Part shown: piece after piece, positions 45,601-60,204 of the stretch
How the letters are laid out: every line of letters begins with the position of its first letter
Numbering within the stretch: the first letter of the stretch is position 1
Assembly (NCBI GenBank): GCA_944319735.1
Contig: CALUEU010000003.1
Coordinates: 1-64,000, forward strand
DNA: 64,000 bases
Reading direction: 5' to 3'
From: an uncultured Methanomassiliicoccus sp.
GTDB taxonomy: Archaea > Thermoplasmatota > Thermoplasmata > Methanomassiliicoccales > Methanomassiliicoccaceae
Position numbers and translations under genes: made by a program
Notes under the pieces: model-generated
Seen by the model: the letters and a program-made list of their open reading frames with translations, nothing else
Told to the model about the DNA's origin: nothing
Database searches by the model: none

Positions 45601-46029
45601 ATGCCAAGCAGAACAAATAAATTCAGAGGCAGAAGGACACACGGTCGCGGTAAAAAGAGTGGAAGGGGAGCAGGTAAAATGGGAGGACACGGCAATGCCG
45701 GTCTTCTCAAGCACAAATATATGTGGGTGCTCAAAAACGATCCCTTGCACTTCGGTCGCCATGGTTTCAAACGTCCTCAAAAAATGGTCTCTGCCAAAAT
45801 AGCCATTAACTTGTCTACAATGGAAGAGCAACTTGAAGACTATATGAAACAAGGCTTCGCCGTGGAACAAGACGGTAAAGTCAAGATAAATCTCACCAGC
45901 ATGGGTGTTGATAAACTCTTGGGCTTTGGAAATGTCTCAAAATCCTATGATGTAACTGTTGCCGAAACCTCCGCTCTCGCTAGAGAGAAGATCGAAGCTG
46001 CCGGCGGCAGTATCGTAGAAGAACTCTAA
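45601..46029 (+). CDS. rpl15: Ribosomal protein uL15
   Basis: Late assembly protein, 142 residues. Glycine/basic N-terminal loop (FRGRRTHGRGKKSGRGAGKM), then LGFGNVSKSYDVTVAETSA. GAGGTGG just upstream supports ATG 45601 over an in-frame GTG at 45592. Confidence 0.97.
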   Translation: MPSRTNKFRGRRTHGRGKKSGRGAGKMGGHGNAGLLKHKYMWVLKNDPLHFGRHGFKRPQKMVSAKIAINLSTMEEQLEDYMKQGFAVEQDGKVKINLTSMGVDKLLGFGNVSKSYDVTVAETSALAREKIEAAGGSIVEEL

Positions 46030-46045
46030 ACCATCCAGTGATACT

Positions 46046-47623
46046 ATGGCCTATGAACAGAAGAGTGTACTGTATAAGTTGAAGCCGATCTCAGATAGGC
46101 TACCCGCAATCAAGCGTCCTGAAGGGCATGTCCACTTCAGGACCAAGATTATGTGGGTCGTTCTGATGCTCGTCCTCTACTTTATAATGACTAACATTTA
46201 CCTGTATGGTTTGGATCAATCAAATATCCTCGATATTTTTGGTCCATACCGAACTATCCTTGCCGGTTCTCAAGGATCTCTAATGCACCTTGGTATTGGT
46301 CCGATAGTTACTGCATCTATTATCATGCAGCTGTTCGTAGGTGCAAAAATCATCAAATTAGATCTTACTGACGATCAGGACAAGTCCGTTTACCAGAGCA
46401 CACAGAAGCTCCTGGTAATCGCGATGATCGTCATTGAATCTGTACCGCAAGTGTTCGGATACCTTACTCCTTCACCATCTCTGATTTCAGGTCTGGATGG
46501 TGTTGTAGGCTCAACAGGTCTGATCAGCGGTGGCACGCTAGCGGCATTCATAATTGTGCTGCAATTGTGTATAGGTTCGTATCTCGTATTCCTCATGGAT
46601 GAAGTGATATCGAAGTGGGGAATAGGTAGCGGTATATCATTGTTCATCGCAGCGGGTGTCGCGGAAGCCATATTCACGGGTACGTTGAATTGGAATCCTG
46701 TAGACAGCGGCGATCTGAGCTTGAGTAATCCGCCGGCAGGAACGATTCCGAAGACGTTCTTCTATATCTTCAACATGTCTTCGGCGCAGATGGCAGGTGG
46801 TGGTTACGAATCGATATTGCTGCAACAGCCTAATCCGATGATAGCTCTGATAGGTACGATAATCATCTTCCTATTCGTGGCATACATCGAATCGTCAAGG
46901 ATCGAACTGCCATTGGCACATGGATCAGCTCGTGGAGCAAGAGGAAGATATCCAATCAAATTACTCTACGCTTCAAACATACCTGTCATCTTAATGTCCG
47001 CTCTCTTAGCCAACTTCAGTATCATCTCCCTGCTGTTGTATACAAACCCTACCCTGGAAGGAATTCCACTGATAGGTCACAACGACTGGATTGGATACTA
47101 TCCGGATGGCACAACGACGGCGCAAGGTGGTTTGGCATGGTATCTGTCGACACCTAACGGTCTCTCAGGTTGGTTGTTACCGATCTTGGATCCGGCGCAA
47201 TATGGTAGCTATGCGTATGGACATAGTCCGTTGCAAGTTATCGCCAAGATATTCGTCTACTTCGGAGTGATGGTATTTGGTTCCATATTGTTCGCCAAGT
47301 TCTGGATCATGACGACAAACATGGGTCCCGAATCAGTCGCAAGACAGATAGAATCATCAGGTATGCAGATCCCAGGTTTCAGACGAGATCCGAGAGTTCT
47401 GAAACGTGTGCTAGAGAGGTATATTCCGGTAGTAACGGTCCTGTCTGGTGCAATTGTGGGAGCACTTGCAGCTGGAGCCGATCTCATTGGTACGGTAGGT
47501 AATGCATCAGGTACTGGTGTGTTGCTTGCGGTGGGTATCTTAATCCACTTCTACGAAGCAATGGGTCGCGAACAGATGATGGAAATGCATCCTATGCTAA
47601 GGGGATTCTTCGGGGGTGAGTAA
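46046..47623 (+). CDS. secY: Protein translocase SecY
   Basis: Channel subunit of the Sec translocon in the membrane, ten TM helices, 525 residues. The plug-region sequence DIFGPYRTILAGSQGS and the TM2/TM3 part IGPIVTASIIMQLFVGAK are clear; the later conserved loop is ARQIESSGMQIPGFRRDPR. It sits after L15 as in other archaea. A stretch of about 46550-47560 has, by eye, more TTG, ACG and GGT codons than its neighbours. Confidence 0.97.
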   Translation: MAYEQKSVLYKLKPISDRLPAIKRPEGHVHFRTKIMWVVLMLVLYFIMTNIYLYGLDQSNILDIFGPYRTILAGSQGSLMHLGIGPIVTASIIMQLFVGAKIIKLDLTDDQDKSVYQSTQKLLVIAMIVIESVPQVFGYLTPSPSLISGLDGVVGSTGLISGGTLAAFIIVLQLCIGSYLVFLMDEVISKWGIGSGISLFIAAGVAEAIFTGTLNWNPVDSGDLSLSNPPAGTIPKTFFYIFNMSSAQMAGGGYESILLQQPNPMIALIGTIIIFLFVAYIESSRIELPLAHGSARGARGRYPIKLLYASNIPVILMSALLANFSIISLLLYTNPTLEGIPLIGHNDWIGYYPDGTTTAQGGLAWYLSTPNGLSGWLLPILDPAQYGSYAYGHSPLQVIAKIFVYFGVMVFGSILFAKFWIMTTNMGPESVARQIESSGMQIPGFRRDPRVLKRVLERYIPVVTVLSGAIVGALAAGADLIGTVGNASGTGVLLAVGILIHFYEAMGREQMMEMHPMLRGFFGGE

Positions 47624-47694
47624 TCATTCCCGTTAATCCCCCACCACAAATCCCTTCCTATACTCCACCAGTCAATACGAAGAAAAACAACAGC

Positions 47695-48327
47695 ATGCTA
47701 GTGACAATGCTGATGTTCGTCTTCGCCATGTTCATCCTGTTTGATCAGAACATCCGTAACATGCTGGGAGAATTTGTAGGATATGCTTTAGATCCTACAT
47801 TAGGAGCATTGGGACAGAATGATCCCGTGCCGGCTCTATTTTTGACTGGTATGATAATGATAGGTCTGAGCACAATCGTCAGACACTTTGCAACAGACTA
47901 TGTCAAACAGGCTGAGACGCAGAAGATCACTAGTGCATTCAACAAAGAATTAAGATCTGCTTATCAGGAAAACAACAAGTACAAAATCAAGAAAATGACT
48001 GAAATGCAGCAGGAAATGATGCAGAAATCGATGGATCTGTCAACAGGACAGATGAAGATTATGCCGATCACAATGATCATCATCGTTCCTTTCTTTGCAT
48101 GGATTGGTGTGTTTTGTGCAGGCTTAGCCGGCGATGTTTCGACAATCAGTGTTCCATGGGCAGATGTTGACTTAAACGGTAGAATCGGACCATTCTTCAA
48201 TTGGATGCTGTTATATTCCGCTATAAGCATACCATTCGGTCAGCTGCTGTCTCGTCTCTTGAGATTCCTGATGTTCAGGAAAAGACTCAAGGAAATTGAG
48301 AGCACTGAAGCTGAGGCAGCCCAATGA
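47695..48327 (+). CDS. EMC3/TMCO1/YidC-superfamily membrane insertase (DUF106)
   Basis: Archaeal relative of Oxa1/YidC and EMC3 that helps insert membrane proteins next to SecY. Three TM helices (residues ~1-20, ~45-65, ~120-145 and a final one near 180) flank a charged coiled-coil (QAETQKITSAFNKELRSAYQ...MTEMQQEMMQKSMD). ATG 47695 is the first standard codon, but it falls inside the first helix. The upstream frame back to ATT 47626 reads PVNPPPQIPSYTPPVNTKK, a typical cytosolic lead, and ATT is preceded by GGGGGTGA (47612-47619). The real start is probably there. The gene would then follow secY by 2 bases. Confidence 0.85.
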   Translation: MLVTMLMFVFAMFILFDQNIRNMLGEFVGYALDPTLGALGQNDPVPALFLTGMIMIGLSTIVRHFATDYVKQAETQKITSAFNKELRSAYQENNKYKIKKMTEMQQEMMQKSMDLSTGQMKIMPITMIIIVPFFAWIGVFCAGLAGDVSTISVPWADVDLNGRIGPFFNWMLLYSAISIPFGQLLSRLLRFLMFRKRLKEIESTEAEAAQ

Positions 48328-48848
48328 AAATCACAATAAGCGGACCGCCCGGATCTGGAAAGACCACGGTCTGCACTCTTCTTGGAGAGCGGCTAAATTA
48401 TGAAGTAGTCGTCTCCGGAAATATTTTTAGACAACTTGCAAAAGAACGCAATATGTCATTAGCTGACTTTGGATCTCTTTGTTCTACCGATCCTAAAGTT
48501 GACAAAGAGCTTGATTCTAAAATGGTAGAGATTGCAAAATCTGCAGACAATATCATTTTAGAAGGAAGGCTCACTGCTTACATGCTTTCTTCAAATAACA
48601 TCCCCGCATTCAAAATTTATCTGCATGCATCAGAAGATGTCAGGGCTGCAAGGGTCGTCAACAGAGAAGGCGGCACTAATGAGCAGCGCAAAGCAGAAAT
48701 CATTGAACGGGAAACCTGTGAAGCATTGAGATATAAAAATTATTATAATATCGATATCAAGGATACATCTGTATATGATTTGGTTATTGATTCTTCTATG
48801 CTAACTCCTGAGGAAATAGTTGAAATTATCATCTCCAAGGTGTCGTGA
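48324..48848 (+). CDS. cmk: Cytidylate kinase (archaeal type)
   Basis: Phosphorylates CMP/dCMP. 174 residues, P-loop ISGPPGSGKTTVC (~4-16), then LEGRLTAYML (~76-85) and the lid VNREGGTNEQRKAEI. Overlaps the insertase gene by four bases. Neighbour of cbf5, as in most archaea. Confidence 0.95.
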   Translation: MKITISGPPGSGKTTVCTLLGERLNYEVVVSGNIFRQLAKERNMSLADFGSLCSTDPKVDKELDSKMVEIAKSADNIILEGRLTAYMLSSNNIPAFKIYLHASEDVRAARVVNREGGTNEQRKAEIIERETCEALRYKNYYNIDIKDTSVYDLVIDSSMLTPEEIVEIIISKVS

Positions 48849-48850
48849 TT

Positions 48851-49807
48851 ATGTCTGAAATGCTTATCCGTGACAAAAGCCCTCTTCCCTTAAATGCAGG
48901 AAAAAAACCGTCTGAACGCACTATCGAAGAGCTTTTGGATGCAGGTGTAATCAATATGGATAAGCCTCAGGGCCCAACATCACACCAGGCTACGGCATGG
49001 GTACGAGAGATCCTTGGTGTGGAAAAGATTGGCCACGGCGGTACATTGGATCCTAAAGTTTCGGGAGTTCTGCCAATAGCTACAGGACGAGCAGTCAGAT
49101 CTGTAAATCTCACACTGAAATCTGAAAAGGAATACGTCTGCGTAATGAGGCTTCATCGTGATGCTGATGAAAAAGAAATCAGAGAAGTGATCTCTACCTT
49201 TGTAGGGCGGATTTATCAAGTGCCCCCTGTAAGATCTGCAGTAAAAAGACAGCTGAGAATCAGGACGATTCATTACATAAATATCATTGAAATCGTCGGT
49301 CGCAACGTTCTTTTCAGAGTCGGATGCGATGCTGGTACATACATACGGACATTATGTGTCGATATCGGTGATGCACTGGGTGTGGGAGCAACCATGGAAG
49401 ATCTTAGGAGAACCAAGTCTGGTTCTATGCTTGAGAATGATGCTGTTACTCTGCAGGATATAAAAGATGCATATGTTATGTGGAAAGAGGAAAACGACGA
49501 GGCTTGGCTACGCAGTATCGTCAAACCATTTGAAGTTCTATTTGATCCTCTTCCAAAAGTTATTGTCAAGGACAGTGCAGTTGATGCAGTCTGCCATGGT
49601 GCCGATTTAGCTGCTGTTGGTATAGCTCAAATAGACTCTTCAATTCAGAAGGAAACTGCAGTAGCAATGTTCACCTTCAAAGGCGAAGCTATTGGAGTAG
49701 GATCAGCAAAAATGTCCTGCGAAGAGATGATGAAAGCTAAAGAAGGCATCGCTGTAAAGACTGAGCGTGTTTACATGCCGGCAGGAACCTACCCTAAAAC
49801 TTGGTAG
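48851..49807 (+). CDS. cbf5: tRNA/rRNA pseudouridine synthase Cbf5
   Basis: Catalytic subunit of H/ACA RNPs; also modifies tRNA U55. 318 residues. Motif I GHGGTLDPKVSGVLPIATG holds the catalytic Asp (near 66); YVCVMRLHRDAD and the DAGTYIRTLC segment follow; the C-terminal PUA domain is present (DSAVDAVCHGADLAAVGI). ATG 48851 has AAGGTG upstream; GTG 48845 would add two residues. It ends in UAG, one of two in the window. The presence of Cbf5 implies H/ACA guide RNAs elsewhere. Confidence 0.96.
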   Translation: MSEMLIRDKSPLPLNAGKKPSERTIEELLDAGVINMDKPQGPTSHQATAWVREILGVEKIGHGGTLDPKVSGVLPIATGRAVRSVNLTLKSEKEYVCVMRLHRDADEKEIREVISTFVGRIYQVPPVRSAVKRQLRIRTIHYINIIEIVGRNVLFRVGCDAGTYIRTLCVDIGDALGVGATMEDLRRTKSGSMLENDAVTLQDIKDAYVMWKEENDEAWLRSIVKPFEVLFDPLPKVIVKDSAVDAVCHGADLAAVGIAQIDSSIQKETAVAMFTFKGEAIGVGSAKMSCEEMMKAKEGIAVKTERVYMPAGTYPKTW

Positions 49808-49993
49808 GTAATTAATTCTAGTTATAATTCTTATTAACTATGGTTATTTCAATTTAATTCATATTTAAATATACATTATTTTTTATTTCTTTTAGCCAGA
49901 GTGTGCATCGTATTCAAAATTTCTACTTCATGTATTCAATATATCAATGTACAGTTATTTTTATTTTATTATCCTTACTTAATTTAAAGTTTT

Positions 49994-50010
49994 GGATGGA
50001 TGAACCATCC
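49994..50010. promoter_or_regulatory. Inverted repeat upstream of the corrinoid operon
   Basis: GGATGG (49994-49999), five-base gap, CCATCC (50005-50010): a perfect 6-bp dyad. It lies about 18 bases before a TATA-like TTATTATATAC (50027-50037), where activators or repressors usually bind. It could also be a weak terminator hairpin for the cbf5 transcript. The remainder of 49808-50108 is very AT-rich and shows nothing else. Confidence 0.45.
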
Positions 50011-50108
50011 GTATTATTAATCATTGTTATTATATACTCATAAATTAAATATCGTACAGCTTAAAATATGAATAATGGATTGTGTAATTTATTATTCAAT
50101 TTTAAGAT

Positions 50109-50168
50109 AGCTTACTGGATAAGCTAGTCGGCCATAATCATGTGTTATCCAGATGGGAGAATATGGCC
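50109..50168 (+). promoter_or_regulatory. Putative pseudoknot leader of the methyltransferase operon
   Basis: Three pairings lie in 60 bases, ending 20 bases before the start codon. P1: AGCTTA (50109-50114)/TAAGCT (50120-50125). P2: CTGGATAA (50115-50122)/TTATCCAG (50145-50152). P3: GGCCATA (50130-50136)/TATGGCC (50162-50168). P2 and P3 interleave as a classic H-type pseudoknot with loops of 7, 8 and 9 bases. P1 shares its 3' strand with P2, so it excludes it. The GGGGG ribosome-binding site follows at 50177-50181. This looks like a switch acting on translation; ligand unknown. Confidence 0.55.
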
Positions 50169-50188
50169 TTCATTATGGGGGAAAATAC

Positions 50189-50839
50189 ATGAGTAGTAGA
50201 GAGGAACTCTTAGACAAATTAGCGAATGCGGTAGTGAGTGGGAAGGTAGATATGGCAAAGGAAGGAGCTCAGGAAGTATTGGCTGCTGGGAACAGCGTAC
50301 TGACTGCACTCGATGCAATCAACGAAGGCCTTGTTAAGGGGATGTCCATCGTTGGTGATAAGTACGCTGCATACCAGGTCTACCTCCCACAGGTCTTAAT
50401 GTCTGCCCACACAATGTATGGCGGTCTTGACATTTTACTGCCCGCTATACCCAAATCAGAAGTAGAAAACAGAAAGAAATGCCTAATTGCAGTTGTTGAA
50501 GGCGATGTTCACGATATTGGGAAGAACATAGTCAAAACAATGATCACTGCTTCAGGATTTGATGTAAACGATCTGGGAAAAGATGTACCCGTGCAGAAAA
50601 TCGTGGAAACAGCAGAAGCAGACCAGACCAATGTTGTTGCGATGAGCACTCTCATGACTCCAACCATGGATGGTATGAAAGCAACAATCGACGGCCTCAT
50701 CGAAAGCGGATATCGTTCTAAATGCAAAGTGATAATCGGCGGTGCACCCACGTCCCCGTCCTTTGCTGAGACGATCGGTGCCGATTACAGAGGTGCAAAC
50801 GCGCAAGATGCAGCATCTTACCTCAAAGAGGTGCTGTGA
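50189..50839 (+). CDS. Methyltransferase corrinoid protein (MtbC/MtaC-like)
   Basis: Cobalamin-binding methyl carrier of 216 residues. An N-terminal four-helix cap domain is followed by the Rossmann B12 domain. The base-off ligand motif is GDVHDIGKNIV, with D106, H108 and G111 giving DxHxxG; GGAPTSPSFA supplies the later nucleotide-tail loop. ATG 50189 is chosen because GGGGG precedes it at about seven bases and 216 residues is family-typical; an in-frame ATG at 50153 lies within the leader structure. The methyltransferase gene follows after one base, so they act together. It cannot be assigned to methylamine, methanol or thiol pathways from sequence alone. Confidence 0.93.
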   Translation: MSSREELLDKLANAVVSGKVDMAKEGAQEVLAAGNSVLTALDAINEGLVKGMSIVGDKYAAYQVYLPQVLMSAHTMYGGLDILLPAIPKSEVENRKKCLIAVVEGDVHDIGKNIVKTMITASGFDVNDLGKDVPVQKIVETAEADQTNVVAMSTLMTPTMDGMKATIDGLIESGYRSKCKVIIGGAPTSPSFAETIGADYRGANAQDAASYLKEVL

Positions 50840-50840
50840 G

Positions 50841-51929
50841 ATGGCTGCTGAAATGTCTCATCTTGAAAGGGCATCAGCAGCTTTAGCAAATGAAGAAGTT
50901 GATAGGCTTACAATCTATCCAATCGCATGCGGTGTCTGCAGAAAACTCATAGGTGATGGAAATATCACATACAGACAGTGGGTAAACGATCCAAAGCTGT
51001 TTGCCCAGGCTTTCATAGAGGGTCAGAAATATTTCGATCTTGACTTTGCGATCGGCCTTATGGACCTGTCAGTCATGGCAGGTGACTTAGGCGCAGGCGT
51101 TAGGATGGATGAACAGAATACGCCGTTTGTCGATAAACACATTGTAAACGGGCCTGAAGATTATGAGAAGTTCGAAGTCCCGGATATAAAAAAAGGAAGA
51201 TCTGCAGTCCTCCTCGAAGGAACTAAGATATTTGCAGATGCCCTCAATGATCAAGTGATAACAGCTGGATTTATAGAAGGTCCTCTCCTCGCTCTCTCCC
51301 AGTCTGCCGGTGCAGAGAGAATGTTTATGGATATCTTCACAAATCCTTCTGCAGTCCACAAGGCACTGGAAATCATGACTGATTATGACGCACAGATGGT
51401 TGAGGGATTTGCAAAAACAGGCGTCAAAGGTCTCTGCTGGGATTACCTGTGGGGAAATTACGCCTGTCTCGGTGATGCAGAATATCACGAATTTGAGGCG
51501 GATAAGTATGCATCAAAACTAAACAAGATGACAGTAGACAACGGTATGGCTATGTGTATTCACAACTGCGCCGATCTGCCCCATCTTGACACACAGATCA
51601 AAGAATTCAAACCTTCAATCTATTCAATGGCTTACTATCCTTTAATCAGTGACTCTCCTTCTGCCTCCCAAGTTATTGAGAAAGGATATGCAGACCATTG
51701 TCTGGTTGCAGGCCAGGTAGATCCACAAGTATTCATCAGATCCTCTGCTGAAGATGTGGCAAAGATAACTACCAATCTGTGTCAGGAAGTCAAAACTGCG
51801 CTGTGCAAACGCAATCTCAAATCCAGCTACTGCATCGCAAGCGGTTGTGAGATTCCTCCTGATATCAACTGCAAGCTGGAGAATATCAAATCAATGGTTG
51901 ACACAGCAAAGGTTGAAGGACGCATGTAA
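50841..51929 (+). CDS. UroD-fold corrinoid methyltransferase (MtaA/MtbA/CmuA family)
   Basis: A 362-residue TIM-barrel protein of the uroporphyrinogen-decarboxylase superfamily. Members move methyl groups between a substrate, a corrinoid protein and CoM. Zinc ligands are H241-N-C243 (CIHNCADL) and C336 (ASGCEIPPD). In MtaA/MtbA such zinc activates the CoM thiol; in CmuA, MtsA and vanillate demethylases related proteins attack the methyl donor. With only a corrinoid protein beside it and no MtmB/MtbB/MttB/MtaB-like gene nearby, it could be the substrate-specific enzyme itself. ATG 50841 starts at MAAEMSHLERASAAL; longer frames read back into the corrinoid gene and are not credible. Confidence 0.9.
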   Translation: MAAEMSHLERASAALANEEVDRLTIYPIACGVCRKLIGDGNITYRQWVNDPKLFAQAFIEGQKYFDLDFAIGLMDLSVMAGDLGAGVRMDEQNTPFVDKHIVNGPEDYEKFEVPDIKKGRSAVLLEGTKIFADALNDQVITAGFIEGPLLALSQSAGAERMFMDIFTNPSAVHKALEIMTDYDAQMVEGFAKTGVKGLCWDYLWGNYACLGDAEYHEFEADKYASKLNKMTVDNGMAMCIHNCADLPHLDTQIKEFKPSIYSMAYYPLISDSPSASQVIEKGYADHCLVAGQVDPQVFIRSSAEDVAKITTNLCQEVKTALCKRNLKSSYCIASGCEIPPDINCKLENIKSMVDTAKVEGRM

Positions 51930-51997
51930 GCGCCTTCACCCAAACCCTTTTTATTTTATATTAATATTAAACATAATACTTCAGCGGGGACGAATCT

Positions 51998-52315
51998 ATG
52001 ATGAACAACGGATTCTATGAATCAATGAGGCAGAAAGGATTCTCATACAACACTACTAATTCAATCAAGAAGTTTAAATGTCCGTATTGTGGTTTTGAAT
52101 TCTCTCTGGTATATGCAAGGACATTTGCATGTCAGGGATGTTCAGAAGCAAACAAAGGCTGCCCCAAAGTGAGGTGCGCTAAGTGCGATACAGAATTTTG
52201 GATCAAGGAAATGCCTAATGTATACAACGATTATCAACAGCGTGATCTAGCTCAGCATATCTCAGGTATTGTAAAAAAATATAACGATGATATGGGATAT
52301 GTGCATAATCGGTGA
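51998..52315 (+). CDS. Cysteine-rich mini-protein in the methyltransferase operon
   Basis: A 105-residue protein with seven or more ordered cysteines: CPYC (~27-30), CQGC (~45-48), GCPKVRCAKC (~53-62). The pattern CxxC...CxxC...C...CxxC resembles small methanogen proteins found beside Feo iron transport genes and other zinc-ribbon-like proteins. It could bind zinc or an Fe-S cluster. The gene lies 68 bases after the methyltransferase and six before the ASKHA ATPase, so a role in metal supply or electron transfer to the activator is possible. No enzymatic motif. Confidence 0.8.
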   Translation: MMNNGFYESMRQKGFSYNTTNSIKKFKCPYCGFEFSLVYARTFACQGCSEANKGCPKVRCAKCDTEFWIKEMPNVYNDYQQRDLAQHISGIVKKYNDDMGYVHNR

Positions 52316-52321
52316 TTCGCA

Positions 52322-54331
52322 ATGGAGCTTGGGCTGGGGATAGATACTGGTGGAACATACACAGATGCAGTTTTGATAGATCTCGAATCAAATAACATAA
52401 TCTCGAAAGCAAAGGCATTGACTACAAGGGATGACCTTTCGATAGGCATAAGAAATTCCTTGAAACTGTTTGATAAATCTTTACTGAAGAAAGTCAGCAT
52501 GGTTTCTCTTTCTTCTACTTTAGCAACCAATTCAGTAGTGGAAGGGAAAGGATGCCGTGTAGGTGTGATCTCAGTCGGTAGAGACTTTGATAAATCAATC
52601 ATTGCTGACGAAAGCATAACAATCTCCGGCGGGCATGATCTCAACGGTGCAGAGCTAAATTCCCTTGATATTGTGAGTGCTGAGAAATTCATGAATTCCA
52701 TTAAGAATAAAGTGGACAGTCTTGCCATAACCAGTTATCTCAGTGTCAGGAATCCGGAGCATGAGCTTATTCTAAAGGAGTTAGCAACAAAAATTCTAGA
52801 TCTTCCGGTGGTCTGTGGCCATGAACTTTCCTCAAGTCTTGGATTTAATGAGCGGACTCTCACTTCAGTAATGAATGCAAGATTAATTCCAATTATAAAA
52901 GAATTAATAAATTCAATGAAGAGTGTAATGTCAGAATATGCCATAGATGCTCCACTCATGATTGTAAAAGGAGACGGCTCCCTAATGAATGATGAAGTGG
53001 CTGTAGAGAGACCTGTAGAAACAGTTCTTTCAGGTCCGGCAGCAAGCATGATCGGTGCAAAGACTCTTACAGGTCTCAACGATGCAATCGTCATGGATAT
53101 GGGTGGCACTACTACAGATATAGGAATTTTAAGAAACGGTCAGCCCAGGCTTGAAAAGGAAGGTGCCATGATCGGAGGGAAGAGAACAAGAGTTCTCGCT
53201 GCTGAAATTTACACTTCCGGCATAGGTGGAGACAGCAGGATCGTTGTAAAAGGAAATAAGTTTTCCTTAACTCCTCTGAGGGTAATGCCATTGTGTATTG
53301 CCGCAACCAAATGGCCTCAGCTGCTGTCCAGGTTAGAAGAAATCTCCCAGAGATGCTTTTTCTTCAATTTAGAAAGCATCAATGTTAACAACATTGTACA
53401 GGATATTGAATTTTTTGTTAAAATAAAAGATATTAAAGACGCTCCGCTGTCTGAAAATGACTGTAAGTTTCTGGAATATGTTTCCAAAGAGCCATTTTCC
53501 TTAAGTGAAGCGGGTGCATCGTTAAATCTCCACCCATTTGCATTCAACGTGTCAAAGATGGAAGAACTGGGAATAATCCAGCGTATTGGTCTGACTCCTA
53601 CTGATATTCTGCATGCAGACGGAAGTTATATTGAGTATGACCGTAAAGCTTCAGAATATGGTGTGAAACATCAGGCTTTGAAAATGAATATGCCGCCTGA
53701 AGATTTTCTTTCTTTTGCTAAAGAAAAGGTGATTGAAAAACTATCAGAAGAACTTCTTAAGAAATTATTTTTAGAGAATATAGGAACATTTGAAATGGAT
53801 GAAGTCTCAAAATCATTGATAAACAGAGCAATTTCAGGATTATCAGATGATTTCAGCTGTTCCATCTCTCTGAATCTGCCGATAATTGGTATCGGGGCAC
53901 CAGTGTCTGCTTATTATCCACAAATGTCTAAGAAACTCAATGCAAAATTGCTTCTTCCAGAATATTCTGAAGTAGGGAATGCTATCGGAGCAGTCACAGG
54001 AAGTGTCATAGAGCAGGTAGAGATTCTTATCAAACCGGTTTCCGGTTCCAGAATGATTGATGATCCCAACTGTACTCTGTTTGCTACTTTTGGAAAATAT
54101 GAGTATGAAAAATGGAGCGAGGCCGTGAAGGACGGCAAGGCTCTGGGATGTGAGTATGTTAAAAACAGAGCTCTTAAGTCAGGGGCATCAAACGTGGATA
54201 TCAACATCGTTCAGGACGACAGGGAATACACGGTAGGAATGGAATATTCTGACAGTAAAATTCTTATGGAGACTGTTTTGACGATCACTGCTATCGGAAA
54301 ACCCAATCAATTCTTTGTCGAGGAAGCTTAA
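52322..54331 (+). CDS. Hydantoinase/oxoprolinase (HyuA)-family ASKHA ATPase
   Basis: A 669-residue protein with the HyuA arrangement: phosphate loop 1 GIDTGGTYTDAVLID (~5-19), loop 2 VMDMGGTTTDIGIL (~258-271) and an adenosine-side segment EVGNAIGAVTG. A winged-helix-like insert lies at ~385-440. HyuA and oxoprolinases open cyclic amides with ATP. In archaea, relatives lie next to corrinoid methyltransferases, where ASKHA ATPases of other subfamilies (RACo/DUF4445) reactivate Co(II) corrinoid. I therefore propose an activator role, with cyclic N-methyl-imide hydrolysis as the rival idea. It has no Fe-S cysteines of its own. Confidence 0.88.
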   Translation: MELGLGIDTGGTYTDAVLIDLESNNIISKAKALTTRDDLSIGIRNSLKLFDKSLLKKVSMVSLSSTLATNSVVEGKGCRVGVISVGRDFDKSIIADESITISGGHDLNGAELNSLDIVSAEKFMNSIKNKVDSLAITSYLSVRNPEHELILKELATKILDLPVVCGHELSSSLGFNERTLTSVMNARLIPIIKELINSMKSVMSEYAIDAPLMIVKGDGSLMNDEVAVERPVETVLSGPAASMIGAKTLTGLNDAIVMDMGGTTTDIGILRNGQPRLEKEGAMIGGKRTRVLAAEIYTSGIGGDSRIVVKGNKFSLTPLRVMPLCIAATKWPQLLSRLEEISQRCFFFNLESINVNNIVQDIEFFVKIKDIKDAPLSENDCKFLEYVSKEPFSLSEAGASLNLHPFAFNVSKMEELGIIQRIGLTPTDILHADGSYIEYDRKASEYGVKHQALKMNMPPEDFLSFAKEKVIEKLSEELLKKLFLENIGTFEMDEVSKSLINRAISGLSDDFSCSISLNLPIIGIGAPVSAYYPQMSKKLNAKLLLPEYSEVGNAIGAVTGSVIEQVEILIKPVSGSRMIDDPNCTLFATFGKYEYEKWSEAVKDGKALGCEYVKNRALKSGASNVDINIVQDDREYTVGMEYSDSKILMETVLTITAIGKPNQFFVEEA

Positions 54332-54399
54332 ACAGCTTCCTTTCATTCATATAATGCATTTAATTAAAAATTACAGATGCAGATTTCCGCATCTGACAA

Positions 54400-54777
54400 T
54401 CAATCTTTTTCAAAGGTTATACTTACAGACCCTACACTTTGAGTCCTTGATTTTGATAGCATGCCTAATTCGAGCCAGGCAGCATGGATAATTGCAGATG
54501 GAACAAGGCATGTTGCTGAACAGTGTTCTCTTCGTTTAGGGTCCATAACTGCACTGTTGGTGAGAGTTGTAACATCGTCCACGCTTATCTTATCAAAACC
54601 ATCTATGTATTTTTTGACATTTATGCAGTCTGTTTCAAACGAAAGTTCAATCTCTCCCGCATCATTCAAAGAAGCTATTACTTTGGTCTTCTTAGCACAG
54701 ACATTCATATTAGCTGTAACCGTGGAGGTCATTTTTACCGCAGATGTATATCTGCCTGCAGAGTTATAACTTTTCAT
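54400..54777 (-). CDS. Small cysteine-containing protein (DUF6951-like)
   Basis: A 125-residue protein with a beta-rich first half. Conserved-looking cysteines occur in NVCAKK, TDCINVKKY and HCSATCLVPSAIIHAAWLEL. From memory this layout fits DUF6951, known in methanogens and anaerobes and without assigned function. It shares an ATGA overlap with the MFS transporter upstream and ends 68 bases from the HyuA gene, facing it. It may bind a metal or corrinoid-related ligand, but that is speculation. Confidence 0.8.
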   Translation of the reverse strand: MKSYNSAGRYTSAVKMTSTVTANMNVCAKKTKVIASLNDAGEIELSFETDCINVKKYIDGFDKISVDDVTTLTNSAVMDPKRREHCSATCLVPSAIIHAAWLELGMLSKSRTQSVGSVSITFEKD

Positions 54778-55952
54778 TTTATTAATCTGAATGGTTTACC
54801 TTCTTCTTTATTCAGTATCGAGCGAGCCACAGCAATGCAGATGAATGCCCCTGCAGTTCCGATAGCTCCTGCATAACCTATTGCTTTTACATCTACGGAA
54901 TTGTAGAGAGGAGTGAATGCTACTGGAGCCAAAGCATAACCGCTGTACCTTACGGTATTGAATATGGATGAAACAGCTCCTTTGTATCTTGGAGAAATCT
55001 CTACAGACGTGGCTAACATAGAAGACCAGGAAAATGAAGTGCCGATTCTAAGCAAAGACAGCGTAATGATGTACTCAATAATGTTAGATGAAAGAGTAAT
55101 CAAAATCAAAGCGGCTATCATGATGGAAAAGCCCATCGCGGAACCAAAAAATCTGCCAAATTTATCACTCACTCTGCCGCTGAACGGACTTATGGCAACT
55201 CCTGATAATCCCGCTATTCCCAGAACTATTCCGATGTAACTCTCATCAAGTCTGAGTGGAGGAAGTGAAAGCAGGTCGGAAACAAACGACATCATACCAA
55301 TGTATGATAAAAATGTAAGAAATCCAGCAATGCATAGGGGAACGATTCCTTTTGATCGAGCTCCTTTTTTCAATACTGTGGCAACTCCTTCTTTGGGGCG
55401 TTCGGTTACACGATCATTTTCAAACAGCTTCAAAAACAGAAAGAGGGCAATTAAAGCATAAATTCCTGTAAATACAAACACTCCGCGCCAGTCTATTAAT
55501 GCCATAACTCCGGCTACAATCGGACCAGAAGCCACACCTGCTGCACTGGCACCGTTTGAGTAACCCATCGCCTTTCCTAATTCCTCATGCGGAACTATGT
55601 CTCCCAACAGTGCCTGCAGTATGGGTTGGACAAGTGCAAAACCTGCTCCTTGCACAGCTCGTCCGGCAAGAAATACTCCCAGATCTGGACTGAAAACAAT
55701 CACCGCACTGCCAACTGCAAATATGCCTAGTCCTGCAGTGGCAATCTGTCGTCTGCCATAAGAATCTGAAGTAGCTCCGCTTATCAGCATCAGCAGTGCA
55801 TAGGGAATCATGTATGCAGTTACAGAAGTCAGTATCTGCGGGGCTGTAGCGTCAAACGCGCCTTTAAGATCAGGCACTAAAGCTAGTACAGCGTTTGTGC
55901 TGAATGGACTTACAAATGATGTGAGATATATGAGTGTAAGGCGGCTATTCAA
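54774..55952 (-). CDS. MFS transporter
   Basis: A 392-residue major-facilitator permease with twelve TM helices. The loop-2 signature is GATSDSYGRRQIATAG (~59-74), with the repeat in the second half as GRVSDKFGRFFG. DHA1-like drug or metabolite exporter by general look; substrate not predictable. The start is TTG (minus strand), since no ATG precedes the first helix. Operon with the DUF6951-like gene, convergent with the methyltransferase operon, so it could carry that pathway's substrate. Confidence 0.92.
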   Translation of the reverse strand: MNSRLTLIYLTSFVSPFSTNAVLALVPDLKGAFDATAPQILTSVTAYMIPYALLMLISGATSDSYGRRQIATAGLGIFAVGSAVIVFSPDLGVFLAGRAVQGAGFALVQPILQALLGDIVPHEELGKAMGYSNGASAAGVASGPIVAGVMALIDWRGVFVFTGIYALIALFLFLKLFENDRVTERPKEGVATVLKKGARSKGIVPLCIAGFLTFLSYIGMMSFVSDLLSLPPLRLDESYIGIVLGIAGLSGVAISPFSGRVSDKFGRFFGSAMGFSIMIAALILITLSSNIIEYIITLSLLRIGTSFSWSSMLATSVEISPRYKGAVSSIFNTVRYSGYALAPVAFTPLYNSVDVKAIGYAGAIGTAGAFICIAVARSILNKEEGKPFRLIK

Positions 55953-56011
55953 CTATAAATCCAGGTGAGATTTAGGTTGATATGCCATGCCCGCTCAAAG
56001 TTTGATAAAAT

Positions 56012-56368
56012 TCAATTAGAGTAGTCTAACTTGCCTTTTTCATTATACCCCTGAACTCTCAAAGGCCTGCTCAAAGCCGCTTCAATTGTCAGAGATGCAT
56101 CTTTCTTCTCTTCGTCAGGAACTATGATGGTAACATCGTAATCGTCTGCAGTCTCTCCATACTCTTCGATTGTGATTTCATCATACCAGCCTCCTTCCGG
56201 CTCTATGAACTCAAAAGCGACTATTTCTTCACTAGATGGTTCGATAATTCTTATCAGTCCCCTCATACCGTCTTCTGTGTCCATGCAGTCGCTGTCAATT
56301 ATAAGATTAGGATTATTTTTCTTCAAAAGTGCTAAACGTGTCTCTATGATTTCTTCAATGATCTCCAT
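56012..56368 (-). CDS. Acidic hypothetical protein
   Basis: A 118-residue, strongly acidic, soluble protein, not recognised. It begins with a helix (MEIIEEIIETRLALLKK) and continues in alternating strands (GLIRIIEPSSEEIVAFEFIE; YDVTIIVPDEEKKDASLTI). Short acidic proteins of this sort are common in Methanomassiliicoccales. Separate from the MFS gene by 59 bases on the same strand. Confidence 0.7.
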   Translation of the reverse strand: MEIIEEIIETRLALLKKNNPNLIIDSDCMDTEDGMRGLIRIIEPSSEEIVAFEFIEPEGGWYDEITIEEYGETADDYDVTIIVPDEEKKDASLTIEAALSRPLRVQGYNEKGKLDYSN

Positions 56369-56442
56369 AGTAATCTGATTTCAATTAAGCTATCAAACCA
56401 CTTAAGCGTAGTGATTAATCTATAGAATACACTCACCTCATT

Positions 56443-57003
56443 ATGCTAGATAAGCTGAGAGAAAGCCTTGCTGATGTGCAGATCATTAAAAAAGGAGATT
56501 ACAGCTACTTTATCCACCCGCTTGCAGACGGGATTCCAAGCATAAGTGCAGATTTATTAAATGAAATTGCAGATGAGATTGTGAAAAAGATTCCCAGATG
56601 CAATCTTATTCTGTCTCCAGAAGCAATGGGCATCCCGCTTGCCACTGCTGTTTCTATGAAAACATCAATTCCTTACAGTATAATCAGGAAGAGATCTTAT
56701 GGCATTCCCGGCGAAGTCTGCATAAAACAGCGCACTGGTTATTCTCAGAGCATGATGTATGTAAATGGCATATCGAACGGAGATGAAATCGTAATCATCG
56801 ATGACATCATTTCTACCGGTGGTACTATCCGTGCCATAATCCCTGCTTTAAAATCAGTCGGAGCTCAGGTTAAAGGCGTTGTAGTTTTATTTAATAAAAA
56901 TCATGGTGCAGAGAAAGCATCTCAAGATCTCGGTATCAGCATTGAAAGCCTGGTTGATGTTGAAGTTGTAGATGATAAGATAAGTTTCTCCATTCGTCAA
57001 TAA
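56443..57003 (+). CDS. hpt: Hypoxanthine/guanine phosphoribosyltransferase
   Basis: Purine salvage: attaches PRPP to hypoxanthine or guanine. 186 residues of the archaeal Hpt family, related in sequence to adenine PRTs. The start MLDKLRESLADVQIIKKGDY and IHPLADGIPSIS are family-typical; the PRPP loop is VIIDDIISTGGTIRA (~117-131). Confidence 0.93.
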   Translation: MLDKLRESLADVQIIKKGDYSYFIHPLADGIPSISADLLNEIADEIVKKIPRCNLILSPEAMGIPLATAVSMKTSIPYSIIRKRSYGIPGEVCIKQRTGYSQSMMYVNGISNGDEIVIIDDIISTGGTIRAIIPALKSVGAQVKGVVVLFNKNHGAEKASQDLGISIESLVDVEVVDDKISFSIRQ

Positions 57004-57034
57004 TCTTAAAAATTTCCAAATCATACAGCGGACC

Positions 57035-57511
57035 GTGTCTAAAATAACATTAAGAAAAGTAATTGCAGATGAGATTGAAGAACTGTCTTCCTTGGCCCAT
57101 CAAATTTGGAGAGAATGCTTTCCAGGTATGATATCTGATGAACAGATCGAATATATGCTGGAAAAGTTTCAGTCTGTAAAGGCGATAACTGAGCAGATGC
57201 AGAATGGGTATGACTACTACTTTCTCATCTACGAAGGGGAAACTGCAGGTTATACGGGCATAAGGGAATATTCTGACGAAGTATTTCTGAGCAAGATCTA
57301 CGTGATTGATAGATTCCGCGGAAAAGGAATCGCGTCTGAAGCAGTCAGCAAAATTGTGGAAATCGGGAAGCCGATCACTCTGACAGTAAACCGTGGTAAT
57401 TTCCGTGCAATCAATGCATATGAAAAAATGGGTTTCGTCAAAGTCAGTGAACAGAAGACCGACATAGGCAGTGGATTCATCATGGATGACTATGTCATGC
57501 AGTTGGGCTAA
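57035..57511 (+). CDS. GNAT family N-acetyltransferase
   Basis: 158 residues with the acetyl-CoA loop VIDRFRGKGIASEAV (~90-104) and the late GNAT strand VNRGNFRAINAYEKMGFV. Acceptor unknown; small-molecule or peptide N-terminus possible. GTG start, 31 bases after hpt, perhaps the same transcript. Confidence 0.9.
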   Translation: MSKITLRKVIADEIEELSSLAHQIWRECFPGMISDEQIEYMLEKFQSVKAITEQMQNGYDYYFLIYEGETAGYTGIREYSDEVFLSKIYVIDRFRGKGIASEAVSKIVEIGKPITLTVNRGNFRAINAYEKMGFVKVSEQKTDIGSGFIMDDYVMQLG

Positions 57512-57571
57512 TTGCCAAAAGTGAATTTTAGACACATTTTATTAATATACATCTGTGCATGAAAGCCGAGA

Positions 57572-58540
57572 ATGGGTAAAAAGTCTCAGATTGTCTTATC
57601 GAACGGTGTCGAAGTCTCAGGGGCCGGCAGATATCTTTTCGACGCTCAATTTATTGAATCTGAGGGAATACACTGCATTTCTCATGCACATTCAGATCAT
57701 CTGCCAAGAAAGATCAGTAAAGGAGAGGCAGTGTGTTCGGAGACTACTCTGAGATGTATCAATGAATGTACTAAACATCAGATTTCCCTTAGATCTGATC
57801 CTAACATTGAAATGTTCAATGCCGGCCATATGGCTGGTTCATCAATGTTTAGATTAAATATTGATGGAGAAACGATACTGTACACAGGCGACTTTTCTAC
57901 AAAAGACAGGTTTGGGGTAGAAGGAGCTAAACCGCATAAGACAGACATTTTGATCATTGAATCTACATTTGGGAAGCCTGAGTATGTTTTTCCTCCGCAG
58001 GAGGAAATGGGTGCAATAATTCATGACTGGGTGGAAGACAACCTTGCCCAAAATAAGTCTGTGGCCCTATATTCATACCCTTTTGGAAAATCTCAAGATC
58101 TTCTGAGAATCCTCTATGATCTGGACCCTCTGCTCGATGACTCAGTCTCAAGAGCTACTTCATCCGCTTGTCCAGAACTGTCATTCAGGAAGTATTCAGA
58201 AGAGGAAAACCTGAAAGAGCCTTTCGTATTAATCTCCAGACCTTACTCCAGAAAAAAATCTATGGAGGCCCCCTGGAGGAGGCCTGATATGCAAACGGCA
58301 GCTGTTTCAGGATGGGCTATGAACCCTTCTTACAAATATATGGCAGGAGTCAACGAAGCCTTTCCTCTTTCAGATCATGCAGGCTTTGACGAGCTGATTA
58401 AATTTGCAGAATGCTGCAATCCTTCTCTTGTGCTGACACATCATGGGTTTGCCACTGAGCTTGCAATGGAAATACGCAACAGGCTGGGAATTGATGCTCG
58501 CCCGCTGGTCAGGGGACAATGCAGCATATTTGATTTTTGA
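57572..58540 (+). CDS. Metallo-beta-lactamase-fold nuclease (SNM1/CPSF-like)
   Basis: A 322-residue exonuclease-like protein. Zinc motif HAHSDHLP (~38-45), then GHMAGSSMF, YTGDFSTKDR, SDHAGFDEL and LTHHGF, the set seen in beta-CASP/SNM1-type DNA or RNA nucleases. The C-terminus is QCSIFDF (58517-58537), fitting the PCNA-interacting pattern Q-x-x-I-x-x-F, which would place it on the sliding clamp in DNA repair. Its end abuts the next (minus-strand) gene with no gap. Confidence 0.85.
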   Translation: MGKKSQIVLSNGVEVSGAGRYLFDAQFIESEGIHCISHAHSDHLPRKISKGEAVCSETTLRCINECTKHQISLRSDPNIEMFNAGHMAGSSMFRLNIDGETILYTGDFSTKDRFGVEGAKPHKTDILIIESTFGKPEYVFPPQEEMGAIIHDWVEDNLAQNKSVALYSYPFGKSQDLLRILYDLDPLLDDSVSRATSSACPELSFRKYSEEENLKEPFVLISRPYSRKKSMEAPWRRPDMQTAAVSGWAMNPSYKYMAGVNEAFPLSDHAGFDELIKFAECCNPSLVLTHHGFATELAMEIRNRLGIDARPLVRGQCSIFDF

Positions 58541-59200
58541 TTACTGCAGTTCCCACAAACCGTTGATTTCTTTGACTTTTCCTAGACATTTCAGGTCGTG
58601 CAGAGTTTTGGAGATCAGGTTGTTGGAAGGTTCTATCTGGAACTGATCTGAGAAAGCACTCTGAATATCCTTTGTACTTCTCGGCTCATACAATGTCTTT
58701 GGCAGGATCGTTCTCATGTCTTCATGTACATTCCAGGGGAAGATGAACCATGTCCAGTCATTTCCAGAAATATTGTATGAATACACATCAGGAACATATT
58801 CAGAGTGTCCAATGTGTATCAAAGCAGCGCTCATCACTTCTGCAGGTTTTTTCTGTTTTACATGATCAACTGCCAGCTTCAAAGAAGCACCGGTGTCGGT
58901 TATATCATCAATAACCAGAACTTTTTCCCCTGTAACATCAGTTATCAGTTCCTGTGTCAATAGTGCATTACCGTCTGGGTTAGCCGTGACTCCCCAGTGC
59001 TCTGTTTTTACTGCATACAGCTTTTTTACAAGAAGTTCATCACATAGAATCCTGGCCGGAACCCACCCACCTCGAGTCAAGCCGACTATTACTTCGGGTT
59101 TGTAATCTGCTCCTCTAACCTTATCAGCTACATCAGCGCACCATTCTGTAATTTCATCATATGTTACCAGTTTGCATTTAAAGCTCTCAACGTCTGCCAT
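58541..59200 (-). CDS. Phosphoribosyltransferase with C-terminal HTH-like domain
   Basis: 219 residues. The first ~150 form a xanthine/guanine-type PRT: EVIVGLTRGGWVPARILCDE and PRPP loop KVLVIDDITDTGASLK (~93-108). The remaining part (IQSAFSDQFQIEPSNNLIS...LKCLGKVKEINGLWEL) looks like a winged helix. Such fusions may couple purine salvage to gene control. Stand-alone. Confidence 0.88.
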   Translation of the reverse strand: MADVESFKCKLVTYDEITEWCADVADKVRGADYKPEVIVGLTRGGWVPARILCDELLVKKLYAVKTEHWGVTANPDGNALLTQELITDVTGEKVLVIDDITDTGASLKLAVDHVKQKKPAEVMSAALIHIGHSEYVPDVYSYNISGNDWTWFIFPWNVHEDMRTILPKTLYEPRSTKDIQSAFSDQFQIEPSNNLISKTLHDLKCLGKVKEINGLWELQ

Positions 59201-59232
59201 ATCTATCCCCGCTTTATTGAATATATAGAATA

Positions 59233-60204
59233 TTATCTTTTACACTTGTTTTCTCCTTCAGAAGATATAAATCTAAAGAAATCCAGCGATCTGATCATGC
59301 AGATGTTTAGATGAGCTTCTACATCTCCTTTTCCAGTGAGTCCAGCGGCTCCTGCGTGACCTCCGCCTACTCCGTTAGTCTCATCTGTAATGTCATTTAG
59401 AATCTTGCCTAAATGAAATCCTTTCTGAACCAGATCCTGCTTGGCTCTGGCGCTGATTCTAAACTCATCCTTTCTCTGAGATCCGACAAAAGCGACATCA
59501 GCACCGACATTGATCATAGCTTTACAGACCGAACCTTCGTGAGAACTTCTCTGAGATATTGCAGCTATATAATCTCCAATTCTTTCAAACTTCATGTTCT
59601 GTGCGCCTTTCAGCTGTGACACTCTCTCAGAAACATCCTGTTTGAGATCTGTAAGGCTTATAACATCCTTCATCTCAATCTGAGCTTCATCCAGCAGATC
59701 TGCAAAGCTTCTCATCATCATTGAGTCGGCAAATTTGAAATGTCCGCTGTCTGTCACCATTGCAGCAGCAAGTACTAGGCCGGTCTTTTTATCCATCTTA
59801 AAATCAACATGCTTTAGAATATCTATGATGACTTCTGCACAGCTTTTTCTATTCTCATCACAGAGCGACAAACATCCTTCCCAATCGCCGCTGATTGCAT
59901 GGTGGTCTATCGCCACACACTCAATTTCTGACAAGTCTATATTTACTTGGTCGCGTGAAGAGCAGTCTACCACAACCGCATAATCATATTCAGAAATGTC
60001 AGGATTCTCAATAACCTCTATTGAAAGCTTATCGGCAACTGCTTTTGCTACGCGATCCATGCCGCCAGGCGCTCCGATGTATGTATCAGGAAAGCCTTGC
60101 GATAGGGCATAAGCCGATCCCAAAGCGTCAGGGTCTGCATTGCCGTGCATTAAAACTATTTTTTTGCCGCTGCTGAGCTTTGCAGCAATCTCATCAATCA
60201 TCAA
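59233..60204 (-). CDS. DHH-family phosphoesterase (NrnA/RecJ-like)
   Basis: 323 residues with Mn-dependent DHH motifs: MHGNADPDALGSA (~19-31), YAVVVDCSSRD, AIDHHAISGDW and the DHHA1 signature GVGGGHAGAAG (~289-299). Likely degrades short oligonucleotides or 3'-phosphoadenosine phosphate; cyclic dinucleotides are another possible substrate. Second ATG one codon in is equally good. Confidence 0.9.
   Translation of the reverse strand: MMIDEIAAKLSSGKKIVLMHGNADPDALGSAYALSQGFPDTYIGAPGGMDRVAKAVADKLSIEVIENPDISEYDYAVVVDCSSRDQVNIDLSEIECVAIDHHAISGDWEGCLSLCDENRKSCAEVIIDILKHVDFKMDKKTGLVLAAAMVTDSGHFKFADSMMMRSFADLLDEAQIEMKDVISLTDLKQDVSERVSQLKGAQNMKFERIGDYIAAISQRSSHEGSVCKAMINVGADVAFVGSQRKDEFRISARAKQDLVQKGFHLGKILNDITDETNGVGGGHAGAAGLTGKGDVEAHLNICMIRSLDFFRFISSEGENKCKR

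Follow-up and report, generated by a model that had tools for sequence, protein, structure and literature searches.

What does a cassette that combines a corrinoid protein with a HyuA-like ATPase do in a methanogenic archaeon, and on what does the ATPase act? The cassette in question lies at positions 50189-54331 of the window, by which is meant the whole 64,000-nucleotide stretch of DNA that was analysed (positions 1 to 64,000 of contig CALUEU010000003.1, assembly GCA_944319735.1), and belongs to an uncultured Methanomassiliicoccus sp. with a genome of 1.77 Mb that is 99.5% complete. The order Methanomassiliicoccales comprises methanogens that depend on methyl compounds and live in guts and wetlands. 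The cassette consists of four intact, co-directional open reading frames on the + strand, encoding a corrinoid-binding protein (COR), a UroD-fold methyltransferase (UROD), a Cys-rich protein (CYS) and a HyuA-like ASKHA ATPase (HYU), as had been described in a first-pass annotation, which viewed them as a candidate new methyl-transfer system. Our analysis indicated that the cassette is better read as a split relative of a known system, the MtsD/F/H-type methylsulfide (methylthiol):coenzyme M (CoM) methyltransferase, accompanied by its own accessory proteins, and we estimate the probability of this reading at roughly 60%. What stands of the claim of novelty is the link between HYU and corrinoid proteins, which is real and little studied.

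UROD scored far below the cutoffs of the NCBIfam models for MtaA (45.5 bits, cutoff 400), MtbA (58.1, cutoff 600), MtaA/CmuA (68, cutoff 235) and HemE (26.7, cutoff 303). In a phylogenetic tree that took in all UroD proteins of the source genome and of one Methanosarcina genome, the UROD proteins of the cassettes formed a single clade (support 100/99), the sister of which was the UroD domain of three fused corrinoid-UroD proteins of Methanosarcina (support 100/98), while MtaA, MtbA and the remaining UroD paralogs branched elsewhere. On the basis of these scores and of the tree placement, the identification of UROD as MtaA, MtbA or HemE was rejected. The cassette clade is sister to, and not nested within, the UroD domains of the fused proteins MtsD, MtsF and MtsH, to which UROD is 35-39% identical, versus 20-25% to MtaA and MtbA. 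The His-x-Cys...Cys zinc triad is conserved in UROD and common with MtsD/F/H, and supplies the ligands expected of a zinc thiol methyltransferase of the UroD superfamily. The earlier suggestion that the UroD protein may act on the substrate itself is supported by its placement beside MtsD/F/H, which do so themselves.

COR contains B12-binding domains and the base-off motif DVHDIG (residue 106, 50504-50521), corresponding to the DxHxxG lower-ligand motif of corrinoid methyl carriers of the MtbC/MtsB type, and it scored 197.9 bits with TIGR02370, under the cutoff of 215.3. It is 43-46% identical to the N-terminal, corrinoid half of the fused Methanosarcina proteins. A quick COR tree supported the link with MtsD/F/H loosely, other corrinoid proteins of the order falling between. 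COR and UROD together appear as a sister lineage of the two halves of MtsD/F/H. Whereas the latter form a single chain of approximately 640 amino acids, the window has two genes, with the TGA of COR at 50837-50839 followed by the ATG of UROD at 50841; furthermore, the window cassette adds CYS, its relatives also add CobW and a His-rich protein, and the substrate is one that we infer. A separate corrinoid carrier and UroD-fold methyltransferase are also found in MtsA/MtsB of Methanosarcina barkeri, and MtsA performs both half-reactions according to work cited in PMC4153887 and PMC7374477. Among the proteins placed in the tree, which did not include M. barkeri MtsA itself, the one Methanosarcina protein that scored as the MtaA/CmuA family, and not as MtaA or MtbA, grouped with MtaA/MtbA and not with UROD. 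The type 1 mlp gene clusters of Kountz and Balskus, for which S- or Se-methyl substrates were proposed (PMC10418091), likewise contain UroD methyltransferase homologs and a corrinoid protein, but each encodes three Mlps together with a Ram/RACE protein, whereas the cassette has one UroD protein, no Ram, and CYS and HYU.

The intact CoM-type zinc triad would also be compatible with UROD catalysing the second half-reaction only, from methyl-COR to CoM, with COR charged by a methyltransferase encoded elsewhere or by methyl-tetrahydrofolate/methanopterin, and for one of the sister proteins, M. acetivorans MtsF (CmtA, MA4384), an activity as methyl-tetrahydrosarcinapterin:CoM methyltransferase has been described as well (PMC7374477). 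However, no substrate or pterin methyltransferase was found in the cassette or in its conserved neighbourhood within the order, and the closest relatives of UROD include MtsD and MtsH, which were assigned to dimethylsulfide and methanethiol use (PMC7374477). A role in the second half-reaction only is therefore considered unlikely.

Conservation of the cassette was assessed in 147 genomes of the order, with ortholog thresholds of E≤1e-60 for UROD and E≤1e-28 for CYS. Of these genomes, 130 contained HYU relatives, 76 a UROD ortholog and 73 a CYS ortholog. UROD and CYS occurred together in 72 genomes, UROD without CYS in four, CYS without UROD in one and neither in 70 (Fisher p=8e-36). In the sole CYS-only genome, and in two of the four with UROD only, the contig ends at the cassette. 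The linkage of the cassette genes is not due to chance, and the neighbourhood search found the cassette recurring as a unit in many relatives, in agreement with the first-pass view of one conserved cassette. Relatives display a fuller order, COR-UROD-CobW GTPase-His-rich protein-CYS-HYU-DUF1638, and the cassette-type CobW co-occurs with UROD (both in 60 genomes, UROD only in 16, CobW only in three, neither in 68; p=2e-22). CobN and ChlI-like chelatase genes are close to the cassette in some relatives. The source genome has no cassette-type CobW, its best match being 39% identical; at 117.5 kb of contig C4 it carries a less closely related CobW gene with a His-rich-like gene behind it.

HYU also accompanies the fused proteins themselves. 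Among 54 fused corrinoid-UroD genes in 42 Methanosarcinaceae genomes, 43 have a same-strand HYU gene less than 1 kb downstream, at a median gap of 227 bp. Of the 11 exceptions, seven lack any HYU match on their contig, several being at a contig edge, and the other four, two of which are MtsH-type genes, have HYU farther off on the same contig. Genome G224 has fused genes at 1.019, 5.412 and 5.613 Mb, the positions expected by locus-tag order for MA0859, MA4384 and MA4558, which are the tags of MtsD, MtsF and MtsH, respectively (PMC7374477), and a HyuA-like gene 10 kb past its MtsF gene matches the "predicted hydantoinases MA4395 and MA4396" (PMC11619418). There is thus strong reason, from gene position and not from an accession, to assign G224 to M. 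acetivorans and its fused genes to mtsD/F/H. The mtsD gene of M. acetivorans (locus L224) is followed by HYU, a Cpn60 paralog and CobW, and the order in genome G179 (locus L229) is mtsD-HYU-Cpn60-RACo-CobW-DUF6951. DUF6951 is also the convergent neighbour of HYU in the window, and thus one set of families accompanies MtsD-type proteins in two archaeal lineages that are far apart.

The Cpn60/TCP-1 chaperonin paralog between HYU and CobW or RACo (L224, 6322-7929; L229, 8583-10217) hints that mtsD clusters contain a module of their own for folding or maturation. The HYU family is heavily expanded in Methanosarcinaceae: most of the large Methanosarcina genomes have about 9-14 copies, and M. acetivorans has 12.

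A scan of named genomes yielded 80 loci. In anaerobic bacteria, HYU is accompanied by MttB-family methyltransferases (PF06253), corrinoid proteins, pterin methyltransferases (PF00809), DUF1638 and RACo, and in eight of these loci HYU and RACo are in the same cassette. The glycine-betaine cluster of strain DCMF has the order MtgC-MtgB-MtgC-MtgB-668-aa HyuA-MtgA-MtgB, and the level of its 668-amino-acid HyuA-like protein rose strongly on glycine betaine (log fold change -7.2) (PMC9768040); bacterial locus L128 has nearly the same gene order. These mtg clusters hold a member of the HYU family inside a corrinoid methyltransferase cluster, but their methyltransferase is of the MttB type, the acceptor is tetrahydrofolate and CYS is missing.

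HYU has the HyuA-like ASKHA fold and ATP motifs. It matched Hydant_A_N and only the first half of Hydantoinase_A, it carries the phosphate motifs DTGGT (52343-52357) and DMGGT (53096-53110), of which DTGGT and the GGT of the second are invariant, and its AlphaFold2 model was confident (pLDDT 90.4), with N-methylhydantoinase, acetone carboxylase beta and caprolactamase as the top Foldseek matches (E 1e-22 to 1e-26). These nearest solved folds would be consistent with a lactam- or hydantoin-opening enzyme that frees a methylated amine substrate, as in the earlier proposal that HyuA opens an N-methylated cyclic amide. However, the obligatory partner HyuB (PF02538) is absent from the source genome and was found in only one of the 147 genomes of the order, by which this explanation is largely refuted. 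HYU shares its ATP motifs and fold with N-methylhydantoinase HyuA, acetone carboxylase beta and caprolactamase alpha (TM-score 0.56-0.63 by query length), but at 13-16% structural identity and with the Hydantoinase_A model matched over half only, and it is linked to corrinoid genes instead. Ring opening by HYU is hardly credible.

The same fold and ATP motifs occur in substrate-phosphorylating ASKHA enzymes, and HYU might accordingly resemble a kinase that acts on the substrate or product, as in carbonyl phosphorylation by HyuA and acetone carboxylase, and not on COR. This appears improbable, since one HYU family accompanies systems for chemically different methyl donors (MttB/MtgB and UroD/Mts), which suits a shared partner better than a shared substrate. 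The partner that UroD-type and MttB-type systems share is COR, which suggests that HYU acts on COR.

Action on COR had also been proposed in the first-pass annotation, in the form of an alternative reductive activator of Co(II) to Co(I), in which HYU, with CYS as electron carrier, replaces RamA. No RACo is encoded inside the cassette, HYU weakly resembles in fold two activators that run on ATP, HgdC and HadI (1hux, 4ehu), and some bacterial MttB-COR-HYU cassettes, e.g. L126 and L128, have no RACo in the DNA examined. The absence of RamA holds for the cassette but not for the genome, which has four RACo/RamA matches elsewhere, one of them adjoining an MtaA-like UroD protein and a corrinoid protein; RACo/RamA is present in 146 of the 147 genomes of the order and is co-located with HYU in the eight bacterial loci and in mtsD cluster L229. 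Although RamA/RACo and HYU are both ATP-dependent ASKHA proteins tied to corrinoid methyltransferases, HYU, which is often beside a RACo, has no RACo domains (no RACo_C_ter, PF14574, match in a profile search), and neither clustered Cys nor an Fe-S motif was detected in its sequence or homolog alignment. CYS, moreover, was limited to one order in the data examined, whereas HYU is widespread. Replacement of RamA by HYU and CYS is thus distinctly improbable.

The role that fits best, although it is unproven, is that HYU is an ATP-dependent corrinoid-protein maturase or reactivase working in concert with RamA, which is the most economical explanation because a chaperonin, CobW, DUF1638 and RACo surround HYU. 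It is tempting, but tentative and somewhat short of even odds, to extend this role to the HyuA-like family as a general, unrecognised ATP-dependent maturase/reactivase of corrinoid carriers beside RamA, in archaea and bacteria and in UroD and MttB types; CYS, CobW and the His-rich protein would then form a branch devoted to metal handling in Methanomassiliicoccales.

Members of the HYU family also occur in other settings. A second HYU of the source genome, 37% identical to the cassette HYU (C1:361491-363431; L231, 8492-10441), has genes for a DUF1634 protein and a TauE/SafE exporter as neighbours, and its surroundings contain no corrinoid gene. HYU relatives adjoin the malate synthase gene in rhizobia (L156, L161, L164, L199 and others) and are by the glutamate synthase gene in roseobacters, in both without corrinoid genes nearby. 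In family f6, small DGC-domain proteins are located in pairs directly beside HYU (L063, L064, L070, L101, L102 and L108).

CYS has seven Cys conserved among 24 homologs (residues 28, 31, 45, 48, 55, 60 and 63; 52079-52186), and its sequence indicates that it is probably a metal-binding protein. Its profile found no convincing solved-structure relative, and its AlphaFold2 model was poor (pLDDT 63.6). A distant CYS paralog is present in nearly every genome of the order, in the source genome at C3:89.4-98.5 kb (L085, 7374-16503), outside the window, where its neighbours encode a second odd UroD protein of 398 amino acids, a DVU_1557-type redox protein, the radical SAM protein TrsS and a DVU_1553-type CoA ligase; this locus is apparently a separate core system.

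The sequences themselves show the genes, their conservation, the kinship with MtsD/F/H, the zinc triad and the linkage of HYU to corrinoid genes. In the proposed mechanism, for which the substrate, the direction of the reaction and the roles of HYU and CYS are inferred, UROD would bind an S-methyl substrate, namely dimethylsulfide, methanethiol or a similar thioether. The methyl group would pass to the Co(I) of COR, and UROD would next transfer it from methyl-Co(III) to zinc-activated CoM. The resulting methyl-CoM would feed H2-dependent methyl-reducing methanogenesis. HYU would be an ATP-dependent accessory of COR, most likely for cofactor loading or for rescue of inactive COR together with the separately encoded RamA, and would not itself be the electron-transfer agent. 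CYS, with CobW and the His-rich protein in relatives, would probably handle metal destined either for the corrinoid site or for the zinc-dependent methyltransferase.

Several observations weigh against a split MtsD/F/H-type system with a HYU maturase. The substrate is assigned solely from kinship at 35-39% identity, and the description of MtsF as a methyl-tetrahydrosarcinapterin:CoM methyltransferase bears on that assignment. The window cassette is without the adjacent CobW and His-rich protein genes seen in many relatives. Growth on methyl sulfides is not known from any isolate of the Methanomassiliicoccales (PMC10805028). With regard to HYU, work cited in PMC5764234 attributes corrinoid reactivation to RamA-type proteins with no HyuA involved, and HYU paralogs away from corrinoid genes exist in the source genome (C1:361491), rhizobia and roseobacters.

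The features of the locus are listed in the table.

Table. Features of the cassette and adjoining DNA, in window coordinates
Feature	Position	Strand	Remarks
AT-rich leader, 25% GC	49808..50188	+	Presumed promoter region 5' of the cassette; no Rfam riboswitch
COR, corrinoid-binding methyl carrier, 216 aa	50189..50839	+	PF02310 9e-24, PF02607 2.5e-19
UROD, UroD-fold methyltransferase, 362 aa	50841..51929	+	PF01208 E=1.4e-42
UROD zinc ligands	His241 51561-51563; Cys243 51567-51569; Cys336 51846-51848	+	Conserved in alignment
CYS, Cys-rich protein, 105 aa	51998..52315	+	No significant family
HYU, HyuA-like ASKHA ATPase, 669 aa	52322..54331	+	PF05378 3.2e-29; PF01968 7e-31 over half the model
DUF6951 protein, 125 aa	54400..54777	-	PF22263 4.1e-16; convergent to HYU
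MFS transporter, Bcr/CflA drug-efflux type	54774-55952	-	Profile match; adjoins cassette

The cassette genes are closely spaced, with gaps of 1 bp between COR and UROD, 68 bp between UROD and CYS and 6 bp between CYS and HYU. For COR, the start listed is judged better than a longer ATG start at 50153 because GGGGG directly precedes it. No Rfam riboswitch matched within 46000-60000, promoter-motif matches around the cassette were at chance level only, and six terminator-like sites were observed versus 2.9 expected. The DUF6951 neighbour is likely associated with the cassette because DUF6951 adjoins HYU in relatives (cluster c23; L121 and L160) and closes mtsD cluster L229 (13403-13735). The MFS transporter was considered as an MtpP-like partner and rejected, as the neighbourhoods of relatives displayed no conserved linkage.

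The window copy of the cassette was probably acquired horizontally from a Methanomethylophilaceae-like lineage, as judged from sequence comparisons in which the cassette genes are nearest to family f5 while the adjacent Cbf5 is nearest to the family of the source genome. Cbf5 is 73-78% identical to homologs in its own family versus 54-61% in f5, whereas the values for f5 versus the own family are up to 76% versus 59-63% for UROD, 64% versus about 52% for HYU and 72% versus about 53% for COR, and the window copies fall among f5 members in the HYU and COR trees. Base composition gave no transfer signal (GC 0.42 versus 0.44). In two f5 genomes (G104 and G108) a cassette is also near Cbf5, in an orientation different from that of the window (48845-54331).

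Homologs of MtsD/F/H have already been reported in Methanomassiliicoccales, with methyl-sulfide genes expressed in situ (PMC10805028), and HyuA-like genes have been drawn in betaine clusters (PMC9768040). In the open-licence papers searched, which are weak evidence on this point, no description was found of the split cassette, of the CYS, CobW and His-rich additions or of the function of HYU.

In conclusion, the cassette provides a defined gene set with which methyl-sulfide use in Methanomassiliicoccales can be tested. The HyuA-like ATPase encoded downstream of mtsD in M. acetivorans and in many corrinoid cassettes, which has been assigned no role in the literature searched, is open to testing in genetically tractable strains.

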